Assembly: GCA_032622095.1 (NCBI GenBank)
Contig: CP136061.1
Coordinates: 2,852,001-2,916,000, forward strand
From: Siphonodentalium dalli
Lineage: Eukaryota; Mollusca; Scaphopoda; Gadilida; Siphonodentaliidae
Direction: 5' to 3'
Length of the DNA: 64,000 nt
The notes under the pieces were generated by a model. It was not told the DNA's origin, made no database searches, and worked only from the letters and a program-made list of their open reading frames with translations. The first letter of the stretch is position 1; every line of letters begins with the position of its first letter. This document shows positions 4,051 to 31,300 of this stretch, in pieces. Position numbers and translations under genes: made by a program.

Positions 4051-7000
4051 GTTAGTAGCCTACATCCAACACAAAAAACAGTCACCTACGTTCGTTTGAT
4101 AGTTAATGTCACTTCCGGAAAGTTACACCAGTCAAATGTGTTAGTAGCAAGTATTTGTCATGCTCGATCTGGAATGTATGTGTGAAGCAAGGGTTTCCTG
4201 TCGTTAGCCTTTGTGTAAGGCTAACAAACATCACAGATTGAACCCCAAATTATCAATTTGTAGATTTGGTAATAGCTTCCAAAAAACATGTTTCGGTTTT
4301 ACTGAGCGGCTTTATGATCAGAAAATGTGAGCTTATTCCATCATATAAAGCATTCCAATTACACCTATAGTAATGCATATATAGTACAGCGTTGGACAAA
4401 AACGTGCCCGGACTTGCTTTAGTCATGTGCTGTAGAGATTTGTCATCCCACGAAAAAGTCCAAAGTCTATTCACATGTGAACCATCTGGGATATTGGGAT
4501 ATGCTGTTTGTACGGGTTAGTGACAAACTTACATAATACCACCAGTGAATGTATCTAATTGTGAAAATACACTGTTTTATTCCGTAGCAAATATGTTATT
4601 TGTTCGGAACTCCAACAGTTGCTAATGGAAAATGTTTACTCTGTCCTGATATATATAGCATCATGTACTGACTTGGTGGGTAACAGCGAGTACAATGTAC
4701 AACAATTCCCTTCACAGGCATGGGTGTAAAACCAGTCATGATGGTCTCGGGGCGTAAACAGCATTTCGCTATCATAAAATCCCAGCTGGTTTACCTACAA
4801 GCAGACTTGGATTATTCAAGAACAAACGGTTTGCCTCGATCCTGAATACTGTGATATCATTGATGGTATAGTTGCTTTTGTGATTTAGTAATGATACAAA
4901 GCCTCCACTCCTATTTTCTGTATATTATGGAAAACGATTATATCAGCTTCGAGGACCTTCTGTATTTATTTTTAATAAAAGCTGCCCACAAGTATGTCTA
5001 ACAATGTATATCTCATTCTCCTCACATGTTCGACTTGGATATACTGCATGATTCACATGGATATTGGAGTTGTCATTTGTGTTTCCTTCGTGTCCTTGGT
5101 GGGCGACACGAATCTTGTATATTCTATGAAATTGCCATCTAAAAACCAACTCAACACAATTGCTCGCTTTATGAACATATATAGAGTAAAAGAGAGTTTT
5201 TGATCTATGCATTGTTTAACATGCAATTTATTCAATTGCAAACCCTACTTGAGACAAATTATATAATATTAGACATCAAGAATTAATATCCAATATGTAT
5301 CTTATTGAGAGCTGATCCGATCGTACTTTTCCAATTTCAGCGGATACTGGAACACATACAGGAATAGATATGATTACAATAATTATTATAATAAGTGTTA
5401 TCGCTGTTGTGGTGTTACTGCTGATTGTTGTGACTGTTATATTAATCAGACGAAGACGAAACAAACACGAGTAAGTGTATACATATATACATTATCCTGA
5501 AATAAGTAATTGGTTATCTTCAATGCGATGAATTATTTCATTCAAATCGGGATTGTGTGATTCCGCATTTGGACCTGAAGGTGGAACCAGGGTTTCACAT
5601 TCGTGATATTTAGTTGTTGTTATTGATATATATATATATATATCTTCATCGGATATAAAGAGTGTCAAACGTCCATCATATTTTGGTCGATTTGAAGTGT
5701 GAAAATGACTTCCCCTCAATATACAGATCACATAGCATGGACAGCTTTTATATTCAGATTAGCAACATCATATGTATGTGTTACTACTCTGATTTGTGTA
5801 TTCACCAGTACTTCCCTATGTTTTTAATATTTTTAGAAGATAGATAAGTTATGATAAATTTTATTTAAAAGTCGGAGGTATTTATTTATTAGGGACATTC
5901 TTCTGTGCGCGAAACTACAGATTGCCGAGTTGTGTACTAATCATTCAAGCCATTCCAATAAATCAAACAGCTTTGTGTGTTTATTATACACATTTATAGA
6001 TCCTGGAACTTGTATGCCACTAGAACATTGGAAAATCAGTTAAGGTCAAAGCTGTTTTGTGAATCGGCAAATATTTTCTAAAAAAATGAATGTTCCACAT
6101 TCGTCATGCTTCCTATTTTCCGGAACAGTCGTGATTTTCCCCCGCAAATTACATGAATTAACAATAGCGGCAAATTACATGCATTAACAATAGCGGCAAA
6201 TTACATGCATTAACAATAGCGGCAACTTACATGCATTAACAAAAGCGGCAAATTACATGAATTAACAATAGCGGCAAATTACATGCATTAACAATAGCGG
6301 CAAAGGCAAATTACATGCATTAACAAAAGCGGCAAAGGCAAATTACATGCATTAACAATAGCGGCAAAGGCAACTGGAAACTCGTTGCTCTCCTGTAACA
6401 ATGCTCTTCCCTGAAATAGCATTTATATGTTTGGTTTAGCCAGGGATATTACGTACATACTACATGCATATGAATATAATTATGTTATGCATACTCATTT
6501 ACTTTACTTTGCGGCCGTAGCCAACGGCGACCAATGACCATGTCATTCCCGGTTATACACGTCTACAACGTTTGCATATGGTCATACATCTTGTTTGGAA
6601 TACACATATACATTTCCACTCATTTGCATAAATGCCAAATAGAACTGTCAATCAATCAATCAGTATCGATCTGATGATACCCACCCTGTTTGGTCTCATT
6701 TCAGGAACGATAACTCTATCCGAAGTACACGACCTATATGCAGTACTCCCGTCGGAGTTTGACCTATATTCTCCGCCCACGCATTGCATCATGGTCTATT
6801 TGTATGCCGGTTGTGCATGTCCGGACATGACCCGTTGGTTATATCCAATGGGATAATGTTAAAGTGACACTCGCATTGAAAACTTCAAAAAATTCAAAAC
6901 TTCAAAAATTTCAAAAACTTCAAAAATTTCAAAAATTTCAAAAACTTCAAAAATTTCAAAAACTTCAAAAATTTCAAAAATTTCAAAAACTTCAAAAATC

Positions 7001-8052
7001 TCAAAAAATTTCAAAAAAGTTCAAAAACTTCAAAATACTCAAAAATTTCAAAAAACTTAAAAAACTTTTCAAAAAGAAACAAAAATGAAAAACAGAAAAA
7101 AATTCATAAATTAAAAAAATATGAAAAACTTAAAAAACTTCAACTTTTTCTAAAATTCAAAAATAATTTAAAATTAAATTAAAATTAACTGTCTTTTAAT
7201 ATATCTAACCCACTGCCACTTCTAAGGGTTCCACACTACACCTGAGGGGATATTGAGTGGTCTACACACGTCTCCTAAACCCTAGAATAAGATCCAGCCC
7301 ATAAGAAACACTGCCTCCTGCAATGCCTGTCATTCGAATCTGACGCAATCACTACTTCTGGCGCAATGCCTGAGTCATTCGAATCTGGCGCAATCCCTAC
7401 TTCCGGCGCAACGCCTGAGTCATTGGAATCTGACGCAATCCCTCGTGAAACCTACCGGCTGACTCACACCCATCGGCTAAACGTTGTATCACATGCTTAT
7501 TATTTGATCATATCGTGGAAATTCAATGTTTTGTCATCACTCATGAGATATAACCCATATCCACTGAAAAAGGGTGGATATCCTCTATTTATTTATAATT
7601 TTTTCTTTGTTATCTTTTTTTTTATCCCTCTTTTTTATCTACCACTTCCTGTTTTTATTCGCTCTTCTTTTTCTTACAACTTCTAATCCCTCATAATCTT
7701 CGAATATCCACTTTCATCTCCAAGTTTTTGAAAAAATTCCTTGTTTAGTAGCACCTCCAGATGGGCTCTATAGAATTTGAACGAGGCATCCATCTTGGAT
7801 ATTACTCTTTTTATGACTAAATCAGTTAGCACGCTCTACAGATGGCATATAGGTAGCATGCTCTACAGATGTCATATAGGCCTCTTCACATCTTGTTTTC
7901 CATAATTTATTCATTCCTAATCGCTCCATTGACTGTAACAAATTAAATTACCCCCTCCCCCTGTATTTAGAATACATCCTTGATTATTAATATTTCCTCC
8001 TTTCATGGTGTGCATGTTCCTTGGGACATCTTTGCTAATGTGAAGCCACACC

Positions 8053-8107
<55 letters not shown>

Positions 8108-11100
8108 ACTTTAAAAGCCCGCGAAAATATTACTCATATTATAGACTTCCCTTTGAAGACCTTTGTATGTGACAATGATCCGTAATATTGTTTCTAAGTG
8201 ACACTGGCCAGTGAAACTGATACTACGGGTATGAACTAGCCAACTTCACATCGTAACGATAATAAAAGGGACACTTCATCTATATCAGTCTCAAAACGTG
8301 TTGGTACACATCTGTGTGGAAACTAAAACCAATCACTCTTCGTCCGTCATCCGTACATAATTGTAATATAATTTTCTCAGAAACCACGGGATCCCTTTGG
8401 CTGAAATTTGGTCTCAACATGGGATCAGAAATTATCCATGGAAGACAACAGTGTCCGTGTGGGGAGAAGCTTCGTAGTGTTTCGCTGTCGCCATGGTGTT
8501 TGTTTGGGTATAGGCATGGGTGGTGAGTGTGGTTCTCATATGGTCTGAACTAGCCTTTACTGACTGAGGTAATTTAGTGCACATGTCATCACTTCACTGA
8601 TAACCATTATATGGTCAAATCCCTACACTATCAAACGCAATGTTTCAATAATGGGTTTTCTTAAAATTTTGACTAAATATTGGTTATATTATACGCATCA
8701 GCGATCCTTCTTAATAACGCTCTGTATATTTTCAAACGCATTGCACTAAATGGGTTTGGAATAGCCATACAGGAAAGGAGAAACTGAGGTCCTGGGTAGG
8801 TCGACTGCATATAGCAGTATATATGGGGTACAGACATGGACAGCAATGGGTTCCTCGTGGCTTCTGGTCTACACATGACATATTAAAGTTAACCACACCC
8901 ATCGGCGCGCCTTTATTGGGCTATGAAGCGCCATACAGGCTCGAATCATGGCCTTCGCCATGTGTTTCTATTTGAACCCACATTAGTAACTAAATAAAAT
9001 CTTTCTCTCCAGGTTGTTTCACGCCATAACCTTGATTTGGAAAGCTTGAAGGGCTAATTAAGCTTCAATTTAAATCTCAACATTTTCTTATTTGAAGAAC
9101 GTATCTGGTTAAACATGTCCACCATAGTAAGCTCATTTAATTCAAAGAGCTTCACACATAGTCCCACTAGTAATGATGTGTCGTTATTTACTGCAGAAAT
9201 GGTCATATAGAATACAATACAACACATTTTGGTCACATACCTTAAAGGTGCACGTCACTTTCGCAAGATATCGAACTGACCATGTATAGAGTGGAATGAC
9301 ATGTCGGGTATCAAATGTATAATCAGTTCCAGTATTTCGTCCATAAGGCAGTTTTGGTTGTAACATCATTGTGTATGACGGTTCATTCATATGATACCTT
9401 AGCGGTTGCATTCGATACTGTCTGTTGTATTTTATGTCTTATATCATGTATATTAATTGCTCCATGGATGGTAGGAGTATGGCATTGGTGTCTGGTTCTT
9501 CGATGTATTCTAGTCATAGTTCATTCATATTATTACTCTAAAATCTCCATTAAATGGAGAAACTAAAGAGCCCATATTATGTAGACTAGTGTATAAATAC
9601 TTACTTCATGCATTATTTTTATCAATTATATGTATTATAACTCCCATCAAGATAGGCTGTTATACAGAGGAAACAAAGCATGTACCAAGTGACAGTCTGT
9701 ACCAAGTGACAGTCTCATGTCACGAAAGGCCTACTATGTGGACACATTTTCTTATCAAAACGCTCTATTATGTAGGGGGTTATCAACCATTGGTCTGGAA
9801 AAGGCATACGAGCGGAAGGCGTGTATACACATTTATTCGATGTACTCTTTAATCGTCGATTTCTATTTATTGTCGTTAATTTATAGCATTATTAGTAGGA
9901 ATCTAAACTCGCCGTTATATTGAGAAAATAATGCGTCAATACCAGTCAATACTGCTTTATTGGCGGTAAATGAAATTATTGAATCATGTATCGCAGCTAA
10001 ACAAGCGAGACAACTGATCACAACTGATTACAAAAATTAGTAATATTTCTGAAGCCTTGAGTGGGTTGTAATACACAGTGTGAATTTTCATTATTGCTAC
10101 CATTTAAGGAAACATGCCCCCGATAGGGCTACTATGCGAACACATGTCTATATTAATTTCACATATTCCTTACCGTTCATTCGTATATACTCCAAGCTCT
10201 CTGTTAATACAGAGGCATCAAAACATTGGTCTGGAAGAGACCTACTATGTGGATGCGTGTATACATATTTACTTGATGTATTCTTTAATCGTTCATTTCT
10301 CTTTATTATCGTTCATTTATAGCATTATTAGAAGAAATTTAGTCTAAAATCTCCATTACATGGAGACAATAAAGAGCCCATATGGTGTAGACTAATGCAT
10401 AAATACTTACTTCATGTATTCTTTTCACCAATTATATGTATTGTACATCCTATACATTTAGTCTGTTATACAGAGGAAACAAAGCATGTACTACGTGGCA
10501 GTTTCATATGACGATAAGACCTACCATGTGAACACATGTGCATATTAATTTCACATATTCTTCTCAAAACGCTCTATTTTATACGGGGGGTATCAAACAT
10601 TGGTCTGGAAAAGGCATGCTATGTGGACGCGTGTATACATATTGACTTCATATATGCATTCATAGTTCATTTCTCTTAATTGTCGTTCATTTAATAGCAT
10701 TATTAGTAGAAATATAGTCTAAAACCGTCGGTATATGGAGAATATATAGCGTCAATACTGTTTTATTGTTGGTAACTCAAATTATTGCATCATGTATCGC
10801 AACTAAACAAGCGAGATAACTCATAAATTCTTAATAGTTCTGATGTCTATGGCAGTTCACACAGTGTATATTTTCATTGTTGTTACCATTTTAGTGCATA
10901 CATTACTGATTTCTGTGTAAGAACGCCGGTCTCCATTGTTGTTATGATTGTGCCTATAACTGTCCATATTCTTAAAGCAAGTACGGTACCTCTATGTGAT
11001 ATGATCTATAAAAATTTCCATTTTCATAGGTAAATCACGTATAAACGCTCTTTAATGTATAGTTAAACTGAGTTTTCACATGCAGGGCTATGTCTTTGTG

Positions 11101-14100
11101 GACTATATACGTGGTATACTTCAGTATATACACGAAGTGAATGTGTTCTAAGTATGCGTATCTGATTTATGTATACGTCCGTGTTTCTTAAAGCAAATCC
11201 AATACATATTAGTGCGTTATATTATGATGTACATTAAGTGCCCTTTTCACTGTTAAATCAAGTAAAAAGGCCCTCTACTATAGTTAACTATTCAGTTCCA
11301 CATACGCTATAAGATCTATGGTGGTCCGGTGTGTCTTATCAATATGCCATTATATGCACGAATGTAATGTGTTCAAATATGTGGGTTATGATGTATACTT
11401 TAGTGTTAAAGTATATAAGCACTCTTTAAGATATGCATATGCAGAATGTTGCCTCTTTACACTGACAGAAAAAAAAGGAATATATAATTTTGAGTACTAC
11501 TCTTCATAAAACGTTAGAAAACCATAATCTAACAACGAATATCGAAGAACAATGTAATTACTTGATAAGCATTGTAAATATTTCGTCTGTTTTAAATAAA
11601 ATGGAAATATTTCGTCTATTTGAAATACAGTTGGAAGCAACAATCAAGTATTTAAATGAAATTTGGACCAAAATCTTATAATTTGAGAAAACGTATATAA
11701 TTTCTATCGAAGTCTTATAATAAAGGAAGGCTTTGTGCGAATCCATTCGGTCTAATGTGTGAATGTGTTCATCATCGCAAATATAATGATGCAGAAATTA
11801 ATATTTCCTAGAATAATGTTAACATAGCTTGTATTTAACCGAAATAATATAGCATTTGAGTTAAAATGTTTCATATTAGGACCATAACGAACCAATGCAT
11901 AAAAATACAATATTTTGTTTTTCATTCTCGATCAAAATAATGCAGGGTTGTCAATTATCAACAAAAAACAAATACTTTGAAACAAAAACGATGACATAAG
12001 AAGGAATATCCAAGAGCTAGTGTGAAAATAACCCTCACATTTATAAAAAAAAAACAATAAAATTAAAGTTTTCGAGTAAGTCCTTCAAATTTATTGAATG
12101 TTTTCGTCTATGTTGGATCAAATTTGACACAAAAATCAATTAGCTCACTAACAGTTCGCGCAATATCTCATATTTTGAGAAAACGTTTGCAATTTTAGAC
12201 AACAATATTGCTAGTGAAGGTGAATATTTCATCCTGGAACTCATGAAATATGATAAAAATAGATGTAAAGACACTTCACGAGCCCTCATATATTTGAGTT
12301 ATGAACATAAAGTCATCTCATAGTGCCATTGTACCCCATAATTTGGTCAGGAGAAATATGTATTTCATATTTGACCCTTCATCTGTGGTAAAAAATGAAT
12401 TAAGGGACATGGGAGTGGTGTCCCTAGACATTAACCTAGAGCATAAATTGACTCAATTATGCAATTTTAGGCAACATTCTTGCCAGGGAAAGTGTATATT
12501 TCATGTTGGAACTCATCCAATGTGATAAACATGCATCATAAGACACTTAATGAGCTCTGATGACTTTGAGTTATGACAACAACGGCATCTCATACTAGAT
12601 TGTAAGCCATAATTTGGTCAGGAAAAGTGTAAATTTCATATTTTATCCTACATGTGTTTTAACAATCAATGTAATTACACCCCATCGGTCGCCTAGACAC
12701 AGCGTAAATGTTCTCAAGTTTTCAATTGTAGGCCACAATGTCGGCAGTGAAGGTAAACATTTCATGTTGGAACCCATGAAATGTGATAAAATGGATAAAA
12801 AGACACTTCCTGAGTCCTTATGACTGAGTTATGAACATAAAGGGAACTCATAGTGTATTGTAGGTCATAATTTGTTAAGGAAAATTGTAAATTTCATGTC
12901 TTAAGCTCCATGTGTTTAAAAAATATATGTAATTACAACCATTGGGTCCCTAGAGATCAATCCACAGTCCATATGTAGTCCATATGCAATTTTAGGGAAC
13001 AGTTTTGCTAGTGAAGGTGAACATTCCATGCTGGAACTCATGAAATATGATAAAAATAGATGAAAAGACACTTTCTGAGGCCTTGGTCGGGAGAAATGTG
13101 TATTGTATTTTGACCCTTGATGCGTGGTAGCAATCAATGAAATTACACCCCACGGTATCCTCAGATATGAAGCAACATCATAAATGCACTCAGTTTTGGC
13201 AATTTAGACAACATTGTTGATAGGGAAGTTGTACATGTCATGTTGGAACTGGTGAAATGTGATAATAATTGATCAAAAGACACTCGATGAGCCCTGATGG
13301 GTTTCAATTATGGTCATAAAGGCATATGATAGTGTCATTATACAACGGGGAAATTTGTGAAGCGCTAACAAAGCGTATCTGCACGGTGTTATACGAATCA
13401 AAATGATCCTGATATAATAAATGCAATCTAGATCATACTCAGTATCTTCGTATCGACTGAATATATCGTTATTCGATGGTGTTCCTGACATACCTCCGTC
13501 TTTACTTTTCTTATGCTTTTGTAGATTGTAGTTCGTCGATAATATCTTTCTGCACAAATGGCACCCGTGTATTGTCTCGAATCATGGGAAGAACTATCGT
13601 CCTTATACCAGCGAAAAGATGAGCAAATATGGTGTGGTATTATAAACTCGCCGCGTTCGTACCTCTATTTATCGTTTAGAGTAATTGTTCTTAGATAAAA
13701 AAAATAGGCGCGCCGGCCCCCTCATCCCCACTGCCGCCGCGCCTATTTTTTTTATCTAAGAACAATTACTCTAAACGATAAATAGAGGTACGAACGCGGC
13801 GAGTTTATAATACCACACCATATTTGCTCATCTTTTCGCTGGTATAAGGACGATAGTTCTTCCCATGATTCGAGACAATACACGGGTGCCATTTGTGCAG
13901 AAAGATATTATCGACGAACTACAATCTACAAAAGCATAAGAAAAGTAAAGACGGAGGTATGTCAGGAACACCATCGAATAACGATATATTCAGTCGATAC
14001 GAAGATACTGAGTATGATCTAGATTGCATTTATTATATCAGGATCATTTTGATTCGTATAACACCGTGCAGATACGCTTTGTTAGCGCTTCACAAATTTC

Positions 14101-17100
14101 CCCGTTGTATAATGACACTATCATATGCCTTTATGACCATAATTGAAACCCATCAGGGCTCATCGAGTGTCTTTTGATCAATTATTATCACATTTCACCA
14201 GTTCCAACATGACATGTACAACTTCCCTATCAACAATGTTGTCTAAATTGCCAAAACTGAGTGCATTTATGATGTTGCTTCATATCTGAGGATACCGTGG
14301 GGTGTAATTTCATTGATTGCTACCACGCATCAAGGGTCAAAATACAATACACATTTCTCCCGACCAAGGCCTCAGAAAGTGTCTTTTCATCTATTTTTAT
14401 CATATTTCATGAGTTCCAGCATGGAATGTTCACCTTCACTAGCTAAACTGTTCCCTAAAATTGCATATGGACTACATATGGACTGTGGATTGATCTCTAG
14501 GGACCCAATGGTTGTAATTACATATATTTTTTAAACACATGGAGCTTAAGACATGAAATTTACAATTTTCCTGACCAAATTATGACCTACAATACACTAT
14601 GAGTTCCCTTTATGTTCATAACTCAGTCATAAGGACTCAGGAAGTGTCTTTTTATCCATTTTATCACATTTCATGGGTTCCAACATGAAATGTTTACCTT
14701 CACTGCCGACATTGTGGCCTACAATTGAAAACTTGAGAACATTTACGCTGTGTCTAGGCGACCGATGGGGTGTAATTACATTGATTGTTAAAACACATGT
14801 AGGATAAAATATGAAATTTACACTTTTCCTGACCAAATTATGGCTTACAATCTAGTATGAGATGCCGTTGTTGTCATAACTCAAAGTCATCAGAGCTCAT
14901 TAAGTGTCTTATGATGCATGTTTATCACATTGGATGAGTTCCAACATGAAATATACACTTTCCCTGGCAAGAATGTTGCCTAAAATTGCATAATTGAGTC
15001 AATTTATGCTCTAGGTTAATGTCTAGGGACACCACTCCCATGTCCCTTAATTCATTTTTTACCACAGATGAAGGGTCAAATATGAAATACATATTTCTCC
15101 TGACCAAATTATGGGGTACAATGGCACTATGAGATGACTTTATGTTCATAACTCAAATATATGAGGGCTCGTGAAGTGTCTTTACATCTATTTTTATCAT
15201 ATTTCATGAGTTCCAGGATGAAATATTCACCTTCACTAGCAATATTGTTGTCTAAAATTGCAAACGTTTTCTCAAAATATGAGATATTGCGCGAACTGTT
15301 AGGGAGCTAATTGATTTTTGTGTCAAATTTGATCCAACATAGACGAAAACATTCAATAAATTTGAAGGACTTACTCGAAAACTTTAATTTTATTGTTTTT
15401 TTTTTATAAATGTGAGGGTTATTTTCACACTAGCTCTTGGATATTCCTTCTTATGTCATCGTTTTTGTTTCAAAGTATTTGTTTTTTGTTGATAATTGAC
15501 AACCCTGCATTATTTTGATCGAGAATGAAAAACAAAATATTGTATTTTTATGCATTGGTTCGTTATGGTCCTAATATGAAACATTTTAACTCAAATGCTA
15601 TATTATTTCGGTTAAATACAAGCTATGTTAACATTATTCTAGGAAATATTAATTTCTGCATCATTATATTTGCGATGATGAACACATTCACACATTAGAC
15701 CGAATGGATTCGCACAAAGCCTTCCTTTATTATAAGACTTCGATAGAAATTATATACGTTTTCTCAAATTATAAGATTTTGGTCCAAATTTCATTTAAAT
15801 ACTTGATTGTTGCTTCCAACTGTATTTCAAATAGACGAAATATTTCCATTTTATTTAAAACAGACGAAATATTTACAATGCTTATCAAGTAATTACATTG
15901 TTCTTCGATATTCGTTGTTAGATTATGGTTTTCTAACGTTTTATGAAGAGTAGTACTCAAAATTATATATTCCTTTTTTTTCTGTCAGTGTAAAGAGGCA
16001 ACATTCTGCATATGCATATCTTAAAGAGTGCTTATATACTTTAACACTAAAGTATACATCATAACCCACATATTTGAACACATTACATTCGTGCATATAA
16101 TGGCATATTGATAAGACACACCGGACCACCATAGATCTTATAGCGTATGTGGAACTGAATAGTTAACTATAGTAGAGGGCCTTTTTACTTGATTTAACAG
16201 TGAAAAGGGCACTTAATGTACATCATAATATAACGCACTAATATGTATTGGATTTGCTTTAAGAAACACGGACGTATACATAAATCAGATACGCATACTT
16301 AGAACACATTCACTTCGTGTATATACTGAAGTATACCACGTATATAGTCCACAAAGACATAGCCCTGCATGTGAAAACTCAGTTTAACTATACATTAAAG
16401 AGCGTTTATACGTGATTTACCTATGAAAATGGAAATTTTTATAGATCATATCACATAGAGGTACCGTACTTGCTTTAAGAATATGGACAGTTATAGGCAC
16501 AATCATAACAACAATGGAGACCGGCGTTCTTACACAGAAATCAGTAATGTATGCACTAAAATGGTAACAACAATGAAAATATACACTGTGTGAACTGCCA
16601 TAGACATCAGAACTATTAAGAATTTATGAGTTATCTCGCTTGTTTAGTTGCGATACATGATGCAATAATTTGAGTTACCAACAATAAAACAGTATTGACG
16701 CTATATATTCTCCATATACCGACGGTTTTAGACTATATTTCTACTAATAATGCTATTAAATGAACGACAATTAAGAGAAATGAACTATGAATGCATATAT
16801 GAAGTCAATATGTATACACGCGTCCACATAGCATGCCTTTTCCAGACCAATGTTTGATACCCCCCGTATAAAATAGAGCGTTTTGAGAAGAATATGTGAA
16901 ATTAATATGCACATGTGTTCACATGGTAGGTCTTATCGTCATATGAAACTGCCACGTAGTACATGCTTTGTTTCCTCTGTATAACAGACTAAATGTATAG
17001 GATGTACAATACATATAATTGGTGAAAAGAATACATGAAGTAAGTATTTATGCATTAGTCTACACCATATGGGCTCTTTATTGTCTCCATGTAATGGAGA

Positions 17101-19342
17101 TTTTAGACTAAATTTCTTCTAATAATGCTATAAATGAACGATAATAAAGAGAAATGAACGATTAAAGAATACATCAAGTAAATATGTATACACGCATCCA
17201 CATAGTAGGTCTCTTCCAGACCAATGTTTTGATGCCTCTGTATTAACAGAGAGCTTGGAGTATATACGAATGAACGGTAAGGAATATGTGAAATTAATAT
17301 AGACATGTGTTCGCATAGTAGCCCTATCGGGGGCATGTTTCCTTAAATGGTAGCAATAATGAAAATTCACACTGTGTATTACAACCCACTCAAGGCTTCA
17401 GAAATATTACTAATTTTTGTAATCAGTTGTGATCAGTTGTCTCGCTTGTTTAGCTGCGATACATGATTCAATAATTTCATTTACCGCCAATAAAGCAGTA
17501 TTGACTGGTATTGACGCATTATTTTCTCAATATAACGGCGAGTTTAGATTCCTACTAATAATGCTATAAATTAACGACAATAAATAGAAATCGACGATTA
17601 AAGAGTACATCGAATAAATGTGTATACACGCCTTCCGCTCGTATGCCTTTTCCAGACCAATGGTTGATAACCCCCTACATAATAGAGCGTTTTGATAAGA
17701 AAATGTGTCCACATAGTAGGCCTTTCGTGACATGAGACTGTCACTTGGTACAGACTGTCACTTGGTACATGCTTTGTTTCCTCTGTATAACAGCCTATCT
17801 TGATGGGAGTTATAATACATATAATTGATAAAAATAATGCATGAAGTAAGTATTTATACACTAGTCTACATAATATGGGCTCTTTAGTTTCTCCATTTAA
17901 TGGAGATTTTAGAGTAATAATATGAATGAACTATGACTAGAATACATCGAAGAACCAGACACCAATGCCATACTCCTACCATCCATGGAGCAATTAATAT
18001 ACATGATATAAGACATAAAATACAACAGACAGTATCGAATGCAACCGCTAAGGTATCATATGAATGAACCGTCATACACAATGATGTTACAACCAAAACT
18101 GCCTTATGGACGAAATACTGGAACTGATTATACATTTGATACCCGACATGTCATTCCACTCTATACATGGTCAGTTCGATATCTTGCGAAAGTGACGTGC
18201 ACCTTTAAGGTATGTGACCAAAATGTGTTGTATTGTATTCTATATGACCATTTCTGCAGTAAATAACGACACATCATTACTAGTGGGACTATGTGTGAAG
18301 CTCTTTGAATTAAATGAGCTTACTATGGTGGACATGTTTAACCAGATACGTTCTTCAAATAAGAAAATGTTGAGATTTAAATTGAAGCTTAATTAGCCCT
18401 TCAAGCTTTCCAAATCAAGGTTATGGCGTGAAACAACCTGGAGAGAAAGATTTTATTTAGTTACTAATGTGGGTTCAAATAGAAACACATGGCGAAGGCC
18501 ATGATTCGAGCCTGTATGGCGCTTCATAGCCCAATAAAGGCGCGCCGATGGGTGTGGTTAACTTTAATATGTCATGTGTAGACCAGAAGCCACGAGGAAC
18601 CCATTGCTGTCCATGTCTGTACCCCATATATACTGCTATATGCAGTCGACCTACCCAGGACCTCAGTTTCTCCTTTCCTGTATGGCTATTCCAAACCCAT
18701 TTAGTGCAATGCGTTTGAAAATATACAGAGCGTTATTAAGAAGGATCGCTGATGCGTATAATATAACCAATATTTAGTCAAAATTTTAAGAAAACCCATT
18801 ATTGAAACATTGCGTTTGATAGTGTAGGGATTTGACCATATAATGGTTATCAGTGAAGTGATGACATGTGCACTAAATTACCTCAGTCAGTAAAGGCTAG
18901 TTCAGACCATATGAGAACCACACTCACCACCCATGCCTATACCCAAACAAACACCATGGCGACAGCGAAACACTACGAAGCTTCTCCCCACACGGACACT
19001 GTTGTCTTCCATGGATAATTTCTGATCCCATGTTGAGACCAAATTTTAGCCAAAGGGATCCCGTGGTTTCTGAGAAAATTATATTACAATTATGTACGGA
19101 TGACGGACGAAGAGTGATTGGTTTTAGTTTCCACACAGATGTGTACCAACACGTTTTGAGACTGATATAGATGAAGTGTCCCTTTTATTATCGTTACGAT
19201 GTGAAGTTGGCTAGTTCATACCCGTAGTATCAGTTTCACTGGCCAGTGTCACTTAGAAACAATATTACGGATCATTGTCACATACAAAGGTCTTCAAAGG
19301 GAAGTCTATAATATGAGTAATATTTTCGCGGGCTTTTAAAGT

Positions 19343-19393
<51 letters not shown>

Positions 19394-22300
19394 GGTGTGG
19401 CTTCACATTAGCAAAGATGTCCCAAGGAACATGCACACCATGAAAGGAGGAAATATTAATAATCAAGGATGTATTCTAAATACAGGGGGAGGGGGTAATT
19501 TAATTTGTTACAGTCAATGGAGCGATTAGGAATGAATAAATTATGGAAAACAAGATGTGAAGAGGCCTATATGACATCTGTAGAGCGTGCTACCTATATG
19601 CCATCTGTAGAGCGTGCTAACGGATTTAGTCATAAAAAGAGTAATATCCAAGATGGATGCCTCGTTCAAATTCTATAGAGCCCATCTGGAGGTGCTACTA
19701 AACAAGGAATTTTTTCAAAAACTTGGAGATGAAAGTGGATATTCGAAGATTATGAGGGATTAGAAGTTGTAAGAAAAAGAAGAGCGAATAAAAACAGGAA
19801 GTGGTAGATAAAAAAGAGGGATAAAAAAAAAGATAACAAAGAAAAAATTATAAATAAATAGAGGATATCCACCCTTTTTCAGTGGATATGGGTTATATCT
19901 CATGAGTGATGACAAAACATTGAATTTCCACGATATGATCAAATAATAAGCATGTGATACAACGTTTAGCCGATGGGTGTGAGTCAGCCGGTAGGTTTCA
20001 CGAGGGATTGCGTCAGATTCCAATGACTCAGGCGTTGCGCCGGAAGTAGGGATTGCGCCAGATTCGAATGACTCAGGCATTGCGCCAGAAGTAGTGATTG
20101 CGTCAGATTCGAATGACAGGCATTGCAGGAGGCAGTGTTTCTTATGGGCTGGATCTTATTCTAGGGTTTAGGAGACGTGTGTAGACCACTCAATATCCCC
20201 TCAGGTGTAGTGTGGAACCCTTAGAAGTGGCAGTGGGTTAGATATATTAAAAGACAGTTAATTTTAATTTAATTTTAAATTATTTTTGAATTTTAGAAAA
20301 AGTTGAAGTTTTTTAAGTTTTTCATATTTTTTTAATTTATGAATTTTTTTCTGTTTTTCATTTTTGTTTCTTTTTGAAAAGTTTTTTAAGTTTTTTGAAA
20401 TTTTTGAGTATTTTGAAGTTTTTGAACTTTTTTGAAATTTTTTGAGATTTTTGAAGTTTTTGAAATTTTTGAAATTTTTGAAGTTTTTGAAATTTTTGAA
20501 GTTTTTGAAATTTTTGAAATTTTTGAAGTTTTTGAAATTTTTGAAGTTTTGAATTTTTTGAAGTTTTCAATGCGAGTGTCACTTTAACATTATCCCATTG
20601 GATATAACCAACGGGTCATGTCCGGACATGCACAACCGGCATACAAATAGACCATGATGCAATGCGTGGGCGGAGAATATAGGTCAAACTCCGACGGGAG
20701 TACTGCATATAGGTCGTGTACTTCGGATAGAGTTATCGTTCCTGAAATGAGACCAAACAGGGTGGGTATCATCAGATCGATACTGATTGATTGATTGACA
20801 GTTCTATTTGGCATTTATGCAAATGAGTGGAAATGTATATGTGTATTCCAAACAAGATGTATGACCATATGCAAACGTTGTAGACGTGTATAACCGGGAA
20901 TGACATGGTCATTGGTCGCCGTTGGCTACGGCCGCAAAGTAAAGTAAATGAGTATGCATAACATAATTATATTCATATGCATGTAGTATGTACGTAATAT
21001 CCCTGGCTAAACCAAACATATAAATGCTATTTCAGGGAAGAGCATTGTTACAGGAGAGCAACGAGTTTCCAGTTGCCTTTGCCGCTATTGTTAATGCATG
21101 TAATTTGCCTTTGCCGCTTTTGTTAATGCATGTAATTTGCCTTTGCCGCTATTGTTAATGCATGTAATTTGCCGCTATTGTTAATTCATGTAATTTGCCG
21201 CTTTTGTTAATGCATGTAAGTTGCCGCTATTGTTAATGCATGTAATTTGCCGCTATTGTTAATGCATGTAATTTGCCGCTATTGTTAATTCATGTAATTT
21301 GCGGGGGAAAATCACGACTGTTCCGGAAAATAGGAAGCATGACGAATGTGGAACATTCATTTTTTTAGAAAATATTTGCCGATTCACAAAACAGCTTTGA
21401 CCTTAACTGATTTTCCAATGTTCTAGTGGCATACAAGTTCCAGGATCTATAAATGTGTATAATAAACACACAAAGCTGTTTGATTTATTGGAATGGCTTG
21501 AATGATTAGTACACAACTCGGCAATCTGTAGTTTCGCGCACAGAAGAATGTCCCTAATAAATAGACCACTCAATATCCCCTCAGGTGTAGTGTGGAACCC
21601 TTAGAAGTGGCAGTGGGTTAGATATATTAAAAGACAGTTAATTTTAATTTAATTTTAAATTATTTTTGAATTTTAGAAAAAGTTGAAGTTTTTTAAGTTT
21701 TTCATATTTTTTTAATTTATGAATTTTTTTCTGTTTTTCATTTTTGTTTCTTTTTGAAAAGTTTTTTAAGTTTTTTGAAATTTTTGAGTATTTTGAAGTT
21801 TTTGAACTTTTTTGAAATTTTTTGAGATTTTTGAAGTTTTTGAAATTTTTGAAATTTTTGAAGTTTTTGAAATTTTTGAAGTTTTTGAAATTTTTGAAAT
21901 TTTTGAAGTTTTTGAAATTTTTGAAGTTTTGAATTTTTTGAAGTTTTCAATGCGAGTGTCACTTTAACATTATCCCATTGGATATAACCAACGGGTCATG
22001 TCCGGACATGCACAACCGGCATACAAATAGACCATGATGCAATGCGTGGGCGGAGAATATAGGTCAAACTCCGACGGGAGTACTGCATATAGGTCGTGTA
22101 CTTCGGATAGAGTTATCGTTCCTGAAATGAGACCAAACAGGGTGGGTATCATCATCGATCGTCACGACGGCCCAAGGAACTCATCGATTCGTCAATGTAA
22201 ATATTAGAAGATCCCGTGCAGAATAGTCTCCTAACACTAGGTTTGGTTTGGGAATTTCTGCACTTTGAGCACTACATATTCTCTGAATGTTACCCACATG

Positions 22301-25300
22301 GACGATAAGGCGATTTCAGGCCAGCCGTGTGACATGCCCATACATATTATACAATACATCAATATAGTGAATATACATTAAGTGAATGTGATATGAAAAC
22401 AATTATCAACACCATTACACGTTGAACTGTACGTGGGAACATGGATTGTTAAAATACCTTATTCCATGCAATTCGCTGGGAGGATAAGCCTTCTCTTCAG
22501 AATGAAAGACAAAATTGTATTATGCGCATTGTGAAGTGTGTTGTAATAAGCATCGTTTGCTGGGGATCAATGTAACCAGACATGTGTGATATGTATCGTA
22601 AATACATCCACCCATTGTACATGCTGTTTTGAAATATGTTATAAATGTTATGTGTTGTGGTTATCCGTACTGCTAACACATTTACATCATCAATGTACAA
22701 TATCATGTTCTTATTTTGTGTTTAATTTAAGGCGAAATGGGCAAAAGAATCCCCGTGCTACTCACACGACAACCACTGATCAAGGTGTGTTACATATCCT
22801 CAATCTTAATAATATTCCTATATAACTCTGCAATTCTTTCCGAAGAAAATCTACTTGGCGTCACTGATTGGAAATTAAATACATATACACCATTTCAAAA
22901 ATTAGCAGATGCCTGTTTCGAAAGTCAGTAGATGATGGCACAGGGGTGTGAGCCCGCCATACTTAGATGATATCACTTGGTTTGTTTGATATTGCGTCCG
23001 ATATCAGCCCGTGGTAACCTCATACCAACCCGTGACCGAAGTTGATCAATTTGCCAACAGCTTCGTGTTTTGTTATATTTTTAATTATTAAATATATATA
23101 TATATATACTCTGCAAGGTAAATAATTGGGCAATACTACTGCCCATTAGATGACCATTGTATGTTACTTTACACTCGGAAAATGTGTTAAGATCACAGTT
23201 TTGCTGAGAGATATGTATGTGGAAATATGGATTAAAATGCCTTATTAATTAACTTAGAAAACAAACTTTTTCATTCTGAACACAATATACATTGTTTATG
23301 ATGCGCATCTCGGGATACCTCACATGTGCCCTATATGTATGTTTATGTTCCCAGAGAATCAGTCGCTTAGGACATGTGCACATTTACACATTCTTCATTC
23401 CAGCTCGAATAACGTTCTTGTCTCGTTCCAGAGATCCAACTGTCAGTTCTGGACTGGCGAATAACAATCGAACAACTGGGAGGTTATATCAAACATCTCT
23501 CATTGGGTACAAATTATTTTCAACAATTCAAGGTAATTGTTATATTATTCAAGGATTGCAATAGGTTCCTCCGTAAAAATAACAATTGTGGTAGATTGGC
23601 AATAGCATTAAAGTAAACGCACAGTATGTATGATTATTGTGCCATTACACCAGTCCCTACTCACAGATGGCATCATATATGGTGTTATAGCTGACAAAAT
23701 GACAAAGCATACGGAATAATTATGTCATGCAATTATCGAACATTAAGAAAATTAAAAGTCAATATCGACTTCTAGATTTATACAGCTTGACATTAAGATA
23801 CTTTTTATCATTGTAAGAATATACATTGTTTTACCTGGGAGACCACTGAGCTTGTATTCACCAAATGGGTTTGTTAATCTTCCAGGTAGTTTATAACGGG
23901 TTTGTCCAATCAAGGGGTTGTATCAATCAGTTGGTGAATACGAGCCCCGGTATTCCTAGCTTATAGCGCTATTTGTTTTATTATCTGAATAAATTACACA
24001 CATGAGTTGCCAGCCTCTTTCAAAAGCCGACGAAATCATTTGCGCTATATTCATTAATTCAAGATTCAATATACTTTATTTGATTTTAGTTCAACATAAT
24101 AATATTCGCAAATATAGTTTTACCAGATTGTGCGTTTGAAAGCTGTTTTGTTTGCGTGGTAAACGTAACGTTTGTATAACATAATGCATATGTTTGAGCT
24201 TCTGCTTTGTTTGCGTTATGTTATACCTAAAGTTTGGATAACATAATGCATATTTTTTCAGTTGCTGCTTGTTTTGCGTGGCAAACCTAATGTTTGGCAG
24301 TATAATGATCTTTAAAACGCCATTTAAAAATATATCGTTTGCACAATTTAGTCAGTGTAGTAAATGTGTCGCACCACAACAGCTTAATGTGAATGCTATT
24401 AAATGTTAAATGAATGTCACGTGTTTTTGTTTTATTTAATTGTGTATAGAAATACAACTGTTCATATTTTTATTTATATTATATTTGTGATTGATCATTT
24501 TCACATAAAAGTCGATGAATTTCCTCGGGATTGAACTCTTTCTCCATCGGTCATAGTAAAAACTGCACCATTACAATGGTACTATTGACATCAGTTAAAA
24601 CAGTACTATTGCAATGGTACAATTGCCATCAATATAGTAACATGTCCTTTCCACAACTGTTCGTTAATGTAGTATCCGGAATCGCGGATCCGATGTGGGT
24701 TCAGTTATACGTTGCTGCTCTTTATTGTGACTTTATATCGCATCAAAACACAAGTCACGCACGTGTCATTCATGAGTGTACGTTGTCTTGAAACGAAATA
24801 TGGAAGAGAGCTGTATGAGTAATTACATTAGCAGATAAAACGTGCACAACTATTGTTAATTATATAATATCTACTATCACTATCAGGATAATATTGTAAT
24901 GCTATGTATCACTTCTGATCTATCAGACAATATAGACAAAGATTTGACATATATAATAACATATGTTTCTTAGAAACTGACACAAGGAGCAGTGAAACCC
25001 TGCATAGCAGCCAAAAATAATGTCAAATCAAGGAATCTAAAAGGGACAAGGAGGATATGTACATGTGAGTGAACCAGTTAATATTTAGTTGTTATCTTGA
25101 TACATCCAGATTGAATTGACATTGACACGTTTGATTGTTGCTAGTATTAATAACTGATGTCCACTGGATTCCACCCAATTAAACTTTAAAACATGAGACC
25201 TGCAGTCCTTCAAAATATCACATCCCGTACATTAATTTATGTTACAAATAATTAATGTGCACATTGTCTGCAGAGAATAAATGATTCAATTGGACAAAAA

Positions 25301-28300
25301 TACATTGTAATGTGATGTCATAAAATACATACACACCTATACGTGTTCCCTGGGCTAGTATTGTTTAATGAATCACCACAATGTCAATTATATGACTTTC
25401 CTACGATTGATGTGTGTATGATGTGTGCATGTTTGCGAACCGATATATTGTAATGATGTCTCATTTATTATTATTTGATACCATTTATTTACTTATAATC
25501 GTATTGTAATGAATTCATATATGTTGATACCAGAGCCAATAACAAGCAACTTCCTCTGGACTCAACAAATAAATTATTCAAGAGAAACGAGAATTACCTT
25601 CATCTGAAATATCATTGCCCACATCGTCTGCTGAAATCATTCAATCTGTGCGTGACTGCTTGGAATCTAAGAATATGTTGGGTAGAACATCAGCGTGCTG
25701 CATAGGTTAATTGGTTTATGGATCATATGTAATGATTTTGATGAAATTTTAAAGAGAATAATATTCAGTGAGTTCATTTTGCTTTCTTTAATCATTGCTA
25801 ACATAAATGCAAACCCTTTTCTTCAGATGACCACACACGAGTCATCCTCACAGACGATGAAGAGCCTCGATTCGTGAATGCGTCATACATTAACGTAAGT
25901 CTTCTGTTCACGTTCAACATATTTAAAAAAAAAAAATTTTGGTTCACGCCACGACATACACCCACTGTCATATCTGAACTCTGTAAATGTGGTTGTGGAC
26001 TAAAGGCCACCAGTCCATGACATGTATATACAGTACACGTAACGTAAATTATACTGCGGTATGGTGCAACTGATTGTCAGACCATGCCATGTATATACAG
26101 TACACGCAACGTAAATTATACTGCGGTATGGTGCAACTGATTGTCGGTCCATGAAATGTATATACAGTACACTTAACGTAGATTATACCGACGTACGGTG
26201 CAAGCGATTGTCAGTCCATGTCATGTATATACAGTACAGGCAACGCAAATTATACCGCGGTATGGTGCAACTAATTCTCTGTACATGACATGTATATACA
26301 GTACACCTAACATAAATTATACCGCGGTACGGTGCAACTGCTGGTCAGTCCATGACATGTATATACAGTACATGTAACGTAAATTATACCGCGGTATGAT
26401 GAACCTGATTGTCAGTCCATGACATGTATATACAGTACACCTAACGTAAATTATACCGCGGTATGGTGCAACTGATTGTCAGTCCATGACATGTATATAC
26501 AGTACACCTAACGTAAATTATATCGCGGTATGGTGCAAATGATTGTCAGTCCATGCCATGTATACACAGTACACGTAACTTAAATTATACCACGGTATGG
26601 TGCAACTGATTGTCAGTCCATGCCATGTATACACAGTACACGCAACGTAAATTATACCGCGGTATGGTGCAACTGATTGCCAGCCCATGCCATGTATATA
26701 CAGTACACGTAACGTAAATTATACCACGGTATGATGAACCTGATTGTCAGTACATGACATGTAAATACAGTACACCTAACGTAAATTATACCGCGGTATG
26801 GTGCAACTGATTGTCAGTCCATGCCATGTATATACAGTACACATAACGTAAATTATACGGCGTTATGGTGCAACTGATTTTCTGTCCATGCCATGTATAT
26901 ACAGTACACGTAACGTGAATTATACCGCGGTATGGTGCAACTGATTGTCCGACCATGTCATGTATATACAGTACATGTAACGTAAATTATACCGCGGTAT
27001 GATGAACCTGATTGTCAGTCCATGACATGTATATACAGTACACCTAACGTAAATTATACTGCGGTATGGTGCAACTGATTGTCAGTCCATGCCATGTATA
27101 TACTGTACATATAACGTAAATTATACTGAGGTATGGTGCGACTGATTGTTAGTCCATGACATGGGTATACAGTACATCTAACTGTAATTTATACCGCGGT
27201 ATGGTGCGACTGATTGTCAGTCCATGACATGTATATAAAGTACACTTAACGTAAATTATACCGCTGAACGGTGCAACTGATTGTCGGTCCATGACATGTA
27301 TATACAGTACACATAACGTATATTATACCGCGGTATGGTACAACTGATATTGGTCCATGCCATATATATATGTGGTTGTGGACTAAAGGCCATCAGTCCA
27401 TGACATGTATATACAGTACACGTACCGTAACTTATACCGCGGTATGGTGCAACTGATTGTCAGTCCATGCCATGTATATACATTACACGTAACGGCAATT
27501 ATACCGCGGTATGGTGCGACTGATTGTCAGTCCATGACATGTATATACTGTACATATAACGTAAATTATACTGAGGTATGGTGCGACTGATTGTTAGTCC
27601 ATGACATGGGTATACAGTACATCTAACTGTAATTTATACCGCGGTATGGTGCGACTGATTGTCAGTCCATGACATGTATATAAAGTACACTTAACGTAAA
27701 TTATACCGCTGAACGGTGCAACTGATTGTCGGCCCATGACATGTATATACAGTACACGTAACGTATATTATGCCGCGGTATGGTACAACTGATATTGGTC
27801 CATGCCATATATATATGTGGTTGTGGACTAAAGGCCATCAGTCCATGACATGTATATACAGTACACGTACCGTAAACTATACCGCGGTATGGTGCAACTT
27901 ATTGTCGGTCCATGCCATGTATATACATTACACGTAACGTCAATTATACCGCGGTATGGTGCGACTGATTGTTAGTCCATGACATGGATATACAGTAGAT
28001 CTAACGGTAATTTATACCGCGGTATGGTGCGACTGATTGTCAGTCCATGATATGTATATGAAGTACACTTAACGTAAATTATACCGCTGTACGGTGCAAC
28101 TGATTGTCGGTCCATGACATGCATATACAGTACACGTAACGTAAATTATACCGTTGTATGATGCAACTGATTTTCAGTCCATGCCATGTATATACAGTAC
28201 ACGTAACGTCAATTATACCGCGGTATAGTGCCACTGATTGTCAGTCCATGCCATGTATATACAGTACACATAACATAAATAATACTGCGTTAAGTTGGAA

Positions 28301-31300
28301 CTGATTGTCGGTCCATGACATGTATATACAGTACATGTAACGTAAATTATACTGCGGTATGGTGGAACTGATTGTCAGTCCATGCCATGTATATACAGTA
28401 CACATAACGTACATCATACCGCGGTATGGTGCAACTGATTGTCAGTCCATGACATGTATATACAGTATACGTAGCGTATATTATACCGCGGTATGGTGGA
28501 ACTGATGTTATGCTACTGATTGTCAGTCCATCACATGTATACACAGTACACGTAACGTAAATTATACCGCGGTATAATGCAACTGATTTTCAGTCCATGC
28601 CATTTATATACAGTACACGTAACGTCAATTATACCGATGACTTGTGCGACTGATTGTCAGTTCATGCCATGCATATACAGTACACGTAACGTAAGTTATA
28701 CCGCGGTGTAATTCAACTGCGTGTCAGTCCATGCCATGTATATACAGTACACCTAACATAAATAATACTGTGGTATGGTGCAACTGATTGTCAGTCCATG
28801 ACATGTATATACAGTACACGTAACGTAAATTATACCGCGGAATGGTGCAACTGATTGTCAGTCCATGACATGTATATACAGTACGCGTAACGTAAATTAT
28901 ACCGCGGTATGGTGGAGCAGATTGTCGGTCCATGACGTGTATATACAGTATACATAACGTACCTATACTATACCGCGGTATGGTGGAACTGATTGTCAGT
29001 CCATGTCAAGTATATACAGTACACGTAACGTAAATAATAATGCGGTATGGTGCAACTGATTGTCAGTCCATGCCATGTGTATACAGTACACATAACGTAC
29101 ACTATACGGCGGTATGGTGCAACTCATTGTCAGTCCATGACATATATATACAGTACACTTATTGTAAATTATACCGCGTGGTGGTGCAACTGATTGTCAG
29201 TCCATGACATGTATATACAGTACACGTACCGTAATTTATACCGCGGTATCGTGCAACTGATTGTCAGTCCATGACATGTATATACAGTACACGTAATATA
29301 AATAATACCGCGGTATGATGCAACTTATTGTCGGTCCATGGCACGTATATACAGTACGCGTTACGTAAATTATACCACGGTATGGTGCAACTGATTGTCA
29401 GTCCATGACATGTATATACAGTACACGTACCGTAATTTATACCGCGGTATCGTGCAACTGATTGTCAGTCCATGACATGTATATACAGTACACGTAATAT
29501 AAATAATACCGCGGTATGATGCAACTTATTGTCGGTCCATGTCACGTATATACAGTACGCGTTACGTAAATTATACCACGGTATGGTGCAACTGATTGTC
29601 AGTCCATGACATGTATATACAGTACACGTAACGTAAATTATACCGCGGTATGGTGCAACTGATTGTCAGTCCATGACATATATATACAGTACACGTAACG
29701 TAAATTATACCGCGGTATCGTGCAACTGATTGTCGGAATTAACGACTACTGATAAGAAGCTCACATGCTTCAGCAGATGCAGGAGCACAACGGATTCAAC
29801 TTTCCTAAATTACTGGAATACGATTGTCTCAAATACCTTTGCGAATTATAACACATATAGCAGGCAGCCTTAGTAGCAACCAAAACGAATTACGAATAAT
29901 AACAATTACCCATAGCTAATAATAGTCAAAAATGTGTTGATGGTTGAAAACCCTATTCGTCAGATTCAGAGTACAATAAGATATCTCAAAGTTAAAACTC
30001 AGTTCTTGCGACCACAATGGCTGATCCAATTTACAAGGCAGAGTTATGCCCGCTCGCTAAGCTGATTATACTACTGTCATCACGTACATAATTGACGCTT
30101 TATCACATATTTTAATTAAAGAATTATTGTTCCTTCAAATATTTTCTGCTTTATTCTGAAATAATAAGGTGTACATTTTCAACTGGACAGTTACCATTTG
30201 TGCATGTCGAATTAATTGCAAATTTCCCGAAATAGTATACACTTTTCGTGTAATGAACTACATCTAATAGAATTAAATTTGCCTATGATTATAACTCTTC
30301 ATATAGTATATACAATTATCTATACAGTGTACTATTTTAACATTCAATGAACTATCGGGGACTGCTTACCTGCCGTCCCCGTTGAACAGTAATATAAATA
30401 TATATGTAATAGTAATTTGAAGTTTTGTCTTGTTAACTATAAACATTGGTATATCAACGTGTGTTGCTATAAATATTAGTATAATTCGTTCGTCGTTCAC
30501 CGTTCATCGATCAGTTTGTGATGTGATATATAAATCACAAACATGTGGAATATGAATATGTGGAAGAGGCTAGCAGAGTACCATGCGATTGGGAGATTAC
30601 AAGCATATATTATTTAACCGTTTCTCTTATCGTACAATGTCAGTCATCGATATAAGAATAAAATACTACGTACTACAAATCGTTGCAATCAGGACAATTT
30701 GTGTATGTACATTTGAGATTCAGTTGATAAGAAGATAGAATATTTCGAGAGTAATCATTTGGTTACATTGTTGGAAGGCATTTTAATTTGTCTTCCAGTG
30801 AATTCCACATCCTTAGAAGATATTGTTCTGGTATGTTTTCCGAGAAGACACTGTTTGGTGTCCCAGATATGAGCATCTCGTTGCGTATCATTTTGGGAAA
30901 TTGTGAAGAAGATTTCAAATTAATTTGGTAGCTGGTCGTGAAATCAATCATGAACAAGGATATTTCAATATAGAGTATATGTATCAATGAATATCAAGAT
31001 GTCCATATACTAGTAATTAAATATCGGATGTTTGACTATTGTATTTTTATTTTTTTATTATGCGCATTTACTTTTTCTAAAGTATGAATACCCTATTTAT
31101 TTTATGCGAATTTCCCCATATATATAGCATACATCAAATAACTGTGGACTATTGAATAGTACATCAACTTGAGTGCTTCGCGTGGTAAGAAGTGCTTAAT
31201 TTTATTCAGACTATAGTTTACACTGGCAATGCTAGCACTCTCATGATGTATATGTTAATGGAATTTCTATTTTTCATCTAATGTTACACCTAGATATGTT

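Follow-up and report, generated by a model that had tools for sequence, protein, structure and literature searches.

Polinton/Maverick transposons are described as elements of 12.7–24.6 kb which generate 6-bp target duplications and bear short tandem repeats at their very ends, with inverted repeats of 46–1,447 bp enclosing genes for a polymerase, an integrase and capsid proteins (PMC8097293). In the same description the repeated end motifs were explained by jumping back during protein-primed replication, and an ATPase was counted among the Maverick core genes (PMC8097293). Copies of the Foldback-like transposon Galileo with two terminal inverted repeats are reported to be non-autonomous and to consist almost only of these long repeats, with variable ends; the repeats measure 18–1,250 bp, are 95.2% identical in the longest copy and lie within 7-bp duplications (PMC3573991). 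We analyzed a stretch of 64,000 nucleotides from the scaphopod Siphonodentalium dalli (contig CP136061.1, positions 2,852,001 to 2,916,000; the window), in which an initial annotation had noticed a 15.7-kb palindrome inside a receptor gene intron. This palindrome is almost certainly one copy of a dispersed transposon. The element falls into the Maverick size range and shares with Mavericks the 6-bp duplication and the short terminal tandem repeats; it differs from them in consisting entirely of inverted repeat, in the lack of recognised genes and in its end motif, (TGA)2. Arms of approximately 7 kb with 99.8–100% identity and a duplication of 6 bp distinguish it from Galileo. On balance, we favour a gene-less palindromic transposon which uses Polinton-type machinery, whose arms are made alike about once per round and whose copy in the window carries a repair scar; the exact replication step is not part of this statement.

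The palindrome is real and lies at 5883–21563, where self-comparison of the window yielded a single inverted match of 15,686 columns with 99.76% identity. The annotated length change in a (TA)n tract was found again, with (TA)25 in one arm and (TA)23 in the other, and the base differences, given before as about six, amounted to seven substitutions. Polarised against other copies of the element, four of these fell on the left arm and three on the right, in agreement with the initial view that the arms had mutated separately. The lists of homopolymer runs of at least 5 nucleotides (60 per arm) were the same in both arms; those of at least 4 nucleotides (152 per arm) were not. A 25-nt spacer was present as described, but pairing restarts past one mismatch and leaves an actual loop of 15 nt on a GC-rich tip with an imperfect stem (Table 1). 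The core of this tip was identical in all 10 copies fetched from elsewhere in the genome, the window version being 3 bases shorter. The comparison further revealed a third copy which had escaped the annotation: 21562–22154 is identical to 20182–20774 (593/593) and, in inverted orientation, to 6672–7264. The outermost segments of the palindrome, 5883–6671 and its mirror 20775–21563, are identical in inverted orientation at 789/789 positions, and comparison with other copies placed both outside the repeated element.

The genome of the window (2.227 Gb, 9 contigs) was searched for further copies. The 71-bp palindrome centre was found at 40 scored places, window included, among 223 candidates, the others showing 93–96% identity. 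For a mid-arm stretch, the 708 candidates included 40 scored matches, 36 of which fell into 18 inverted pairs approximately 5.15 kb apart. The ten best-scoring centres after the window were fetched as whole copies, and ten further copies, chosen from the other 29 scored, were read at their ends only, a selection which favours young and intact copies. All ten fetched copies were palindromes, as were thus 11 of 11 read whole with the window included. Nine of the ten span 13.9–14.2 kb. In the tenth (c023, C2:200811591-200836928) the right arm is interrupted, probably by a second insertion.

The true element ends are TGATGATA...TATCATCA. Among the 21 copies, window included, whose predicted ends were both read, 19 showed exact 6-bp target duplications directly outside the ends, and these duplications mostly differed between insertion sites. 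In the two copies without a duplication reading, c023 and L031/L032, one end lay beyond the stretch read; their exact ends were found 25.3 and 9.3 kb apart, respectively. All 19 copies aligned at both ends carry the terminus TGATGAT, a motif unlike those of vertebrate Mavericks. Exact occurrences of the 22-base end numbered 127 in the genome, against none of its reversed control. From the 100 of these 127 sites that were listed, 39 inverted end pairs were formed, namely 19 at 13.8–14.6 kb, 12 at 4.1–12.4 kb, seven below 3 kb and one at 25.3 kb (unpaired ends and the 27 of 127 not listed were omitted, and at a C4 site with two left ends the nearer one was chosen). Among the pairs below 13.7 kb the single one checked for palindromy, L071, is not a palindrome. 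A search of viral contigs with a 26-base arm-end pattern gave 0 matches. In form the element is of the foldback type, since it consists mostly of inverted repeat, lies within target duplications and occurs in dispersed copies; no kinship is implied by this term.

The initial annotation had left a choice of two explanations, a real fold-back duplication or an assembly/library artefact from fold-back long reads. Fold-back reads are reported for about 0.55–0.6% of genomic reads from Oxford Nanopore Technologies sequencing (PMC12870357) and for 40–50% of reads from amplified Arabidopsis samples (PMC6218980). However, distinct flanks and exact 6-bp duplications surround the copies, arm differences fall on either side, and in the window the two outer flanks differ and the host reading frame is maintained across the palindrome. 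An assembly or library artefact from such reads is consequently the least probable of all explanations and can practically be dismissed. The explanation that intron DNA was duplicated at this locus in a single fold-back or template-switch event fares hardly better and is extremely improbable. The GC-rich imperfect stem and short loop do resemble yeast fold-back priming sites (imperfect 11-bp repeat, 6-bp spacer; PMC10622511), and the outer 789 bp do form a local inverted duplication. Nevertheless, the same centre, arms and ends recur at many sites on other chromosomes, target duplications flank the element, and the arm sequence is not single-copy. Because of the sister copies on other chromosomes and the target-site duplication, local duplication was refuted for the element and holds only for 5883–6671 and its mirror. 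Apparently, neither half of the annotated choice describes the locus, which is a transposon copy. A TA-duplication transposon spanning 5883–21563 was also ruled out, since no end of the element lies at 5883.

The sequence beyond the element very likely represents the scar of an arm-templated repair in the window copy, the order of events being deduced from the identities and a shared TA. After insertion the right arm would have suffered a break 593 bp from the element end. The broken arm would then have been extended by copying the left arm beyond its end and a further 789 bp of the adjoining intron, and end joining of the new terminus to the leftover 593 bp at the shared TA would have given the 15.7-kb palindrome. 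Such a repair accounts for the third 593-bp copy, for the 789/789 identity and for a palindrome exceeding the length of the element. We read the outer 789 bp per side as the sole local inverted duplication, made later by this repair. The target duplication of the window copy, TCGATC, encloses the element together with the scar (Table 1). A chain of local fold-backs or template switches with 22154/22155 as the third switch was ruled out, as other copies revealed 22154 to be the true element end, which is followed by the TCGATC duplication.

Arm likeness was then compared within and between copies. The arm-difference and duplication sets did not contain c023, and part of the c013 range and the last 40 alignment columns were left out of the arm comparison. 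Over 6,894–7,053 compared sites the two arms of ten copies differed by 0, 0, 1, 0, 1, 11, 5, 17, 7 and 5 substitutions (7 in the window copy). Between copies, 2.3–21.4 differences per thousand were observed. Of 428 non-majority bases, 381 were shared by the two arms of the same copy, and the nearest neighbour of each arm was its own partner in 20 of 20 cases. The outer 60 bp, compared in 19 copies (without c023 and L031/L032), fell into 14 types; both ends were the same in 18 copies and one base apart in the remaining one, while different copies agreed in 12 of 342 comparisons. Single-arm changes fell on both arms, as expected of mutations after insertion. Thus, both arms have likely been templated by one arm about once per round. 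LTR (long terminal repeat) retrotransposons behave similarly, their two copies being made alike in each round and diverging after insertion, and they have TG...CA as outer bases, as has the element. LTRs, in contrast, are direct terminal repeats, whereas the repeats of the element are inverted and fill it, and no reverse transcriptase was recognised in the 17 arm frames scanned with Pfam. Variation between copies was much denser in the outer ~90 bp than in most of the arm, and after TGATGATA this outer part appeared as a mosaic of exchangeable short modules.

Alternatively, the family could be an ordinary cut-and-paste element of the foldback kind whose inverted repeats are very long and whose arms are homogenised in the chromosome by gene conversion, comparable to human Y palindromes, and not in each round. 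Large mammalian sex-chromosome palindromes share the long, nearly identical arms and reportedly owe an arm identity of more than 99% to conversion (PMC8981503). In the window copy, insertion was apparently followed by arm-templated synthesis, and no helper element was identified when end pairs and polymerase matches were compared. Both observations would suit conversion. To our knowledge, the mammalian palindromes are not mobile and lack target duplications. Conversion of single arms was not reflected at the ends: no copy with an end swapped on one arm only was seen among the 19 copies aligned at both ends, despite the 14 types. Moreover, the 0–17 single-arm differences, distributed over both arms, are as for insertions of various ages. 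A foldback element with arms kept alike by gene conversion is regarded as less likely. The classification as a Foldback/Galileo element (P superfamily) also finds no correspondence, as the duplications comprise 6 and not 7 bp and no transposase was recognised in the Pfam scan.

Judged by its sequence, the element is not an autonomous Polinton, because protein-primed polymerase, integrase and capsid genes are not coded in the arms (17 frames, Pfam). The longest stop-to-stop arm frames comprise 110–131 amino acids. Protein-primed polymerase genes do occur elsewhere in the genome, with at least 149 matches in the 69 candidates scored out of 1,596 and an internal stop in one of the matches listed; the same search found none in 14 control genomes. 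Many Polinton-like loci (L049–L056; pieces L057–L062 and L070) hold long open polymerase frames of approximately 950 and 1,310 amino acids. Several of them are 98–99.9% alike and apparently belong to young families.

A possible connection between the element and Polintons is suggested by L071 (C5:84620320-84622290). This non-palindromic locus of 1,971 bp has the same ends as the palindrome, the duplication CACAAT and a 79-bp inverted repeat of 98.7% identity. Its one frame of 385 amino acids gave a weak zinc-finger match and a match to Pox_A32 (E 3.1e-7, 30.6 bits versus a cut-off of 22.8). A32-type ATPases are the packaging ATPases of Polintons and their relatives. Given ends built of a repeated trinucleotide, target duplications of 6 bp and the shared ends of L071 with the A32-type match, the palindromic element may be classified, with somewhat more in favour than against, as a gene-less Polinton/Maverick derivative. 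It would then probably depend on Polinton/Maverick-type machinery from other elements.

Several points weigh against this interpretation. None of the 17 arm frames scored above the Pfam cut-off, the best-noted being a C2H2-like frame with E 0.009, and no polymerase or integrase was found between TGATGATA ends: inside the 39 end pairs no polymerase match was seen in a by-eye comparison of the 69 scored polymerase candidates (of 1,596) with the 100 listed ends (of 127). The one Polinton family examined appears to start with AGAAGAATAGGGG instead. As to the arms, gene conversion in the chromosome could likewise keep them alike. The Polinton family with the polymerase of approximately 950 amino acids was considered as a direct partner and rejected, and the TGATGATA seen upstream of one polymerase gene, at a distance of 4.8 kb, was counted as coincidence. 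In other copies of that polymerase family, seven 1-kb stretches covering the predicted site lacked TGATGATA, a weak test as only two of the seven are homologous to that end. AGAAGAATAGGGG or a near-AGAAGAATAGGGG was found where likeness stops between the two homologous stretches and the first polymerase locus.

How could one arm template the other? Replication may take place outside the chromosome and begin at the open end by protein priming, for which the end motif speaks, since the repeated (TGA)2 would permit jumping back. Arriving at the GC-rich tip, the new strand would snap back and copy itself; alternatively, the strand would fold into a 7-kb hairpin with subsequent repair of mismatches. 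In either case both arms would derive from one template. The linear palindrome would finally be inserted by a retroviral-type integrase with a 6-bp duplication. For the exact snap-back or hairpin step the chances are slightly short of even. Still more tentatively, the family could stand for a transposon class which alternates between a 14-kb chromosomal palindrome and a 7-kb clothespin with a closed GC-rich hairpin end and a protein-primed open end. Half of the element would be rewritten in each cycle, the arms would serve as an inverted equivalent of LTRs for dating insertions, and Polinton machinery would be parasitised by perhaps hundreds of copies in one genome. A clothespin intermediate appears possible because the linear plasmid pFOXC of Fusarium mitochondria is described in such a form, with a closed hairpin end and a protein-linked open end with short terminal repeats (PMC3035579). 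pFOXC, however, has approximately 1.9 kb and one reverse transcriptase gene and is non-integrated (PMC3035579), and the clothespin form is only proposed for the element.

Long palindromes are regarded as unstable and rare in natural genomes (PMC10766186). Among the top-ranked results of a literature search, which lay largely outside the subscription literature, no giant palindromic transposon with renewed arms was found. The 40 scored centre copies (223 candidates), some with arms free of substitutions over nearly 7 kb, offer natural material for studying the maintenance, repair or silencing of giant inverted repeats in an animal. The mirrored ends point to a replication cycle with one arm as template for the other. 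In addition, the window copy appears to record one arm-templated repair by which intragenic host flank was mirrored, a concrete route from mobile palindromes to inverted duplications.

Table 1: Coordinates of the palindromic element, its scar and the neighbouring host exons in the window.
Feature	Position	Strand	Basis
Palindromic transposon, present mirror form, 14,103 bp	6672..20774		Ends match those of other copies; sister copies genome-wide
Original element, 14,103 bp	6672-20181 plus 21562-22154		Reading of the repair scar
Left arm	6672..13717	+	Arm comparison
15-nt loop of GC-rich tip, imperfect stem 13707-13717 / 13733-13743	13718..13732		Pairing; fetched copies
Right arm; portion 20182-20774 read as re-synthesised on left arm	13733..20774	-	Arm comparison
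Target-site duplication TCGATC, left	6666..6671	+	Element ends
Target-site duplication TCGATC, right	22155..22160	+	Element ends
Ordinary left flank (intron DNA) of the insertion, apparently mirrored later	5883..6671	+	Missing from other copies
Left flank in inverted copy, 789/789; putative overrun of arm-templated repair	20775..21563	-	Identity
TA common to both sides of the putative repair junction	21562..21563		Junction sequence
Original right end of the element, 593 bp, read as remaining beyond the break	21562..22154	+	Identity; element ends
Host exon with transmembrane segment	5343..5470	+	Reading frame
Next host exon, in phase	22732..22784	+	Reading frame
Subsequent host exon, in phase	23432..23532	+	Reading frame

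The annotated position within an intron of a receptor-like gene was borne out by three exons which remain in phase across the palindrome (Table 1). The intron (5471–22731) comprises 17,261 bp and would shrink to approximately 1.8 kb on removal of 6672–22154 and one copy of the 6-bp duplication. The host gene looks like one for a protein with EGF domains and a receptor-type tyrosine phosphatase, although no Pfam match reached the cut-off (Y_phosphatase E 0.07). The window yielded no hits in Rfam or tRNA scans. A 67-bp tandem repeat with approximately 55 copies was observed at 26011–29734 in the same gene. Finally, NYDQLERNQ-like tyrosine motifs recur in a frame at 47349–47693, which may represent the cytoplasmic tail of the host receptor.

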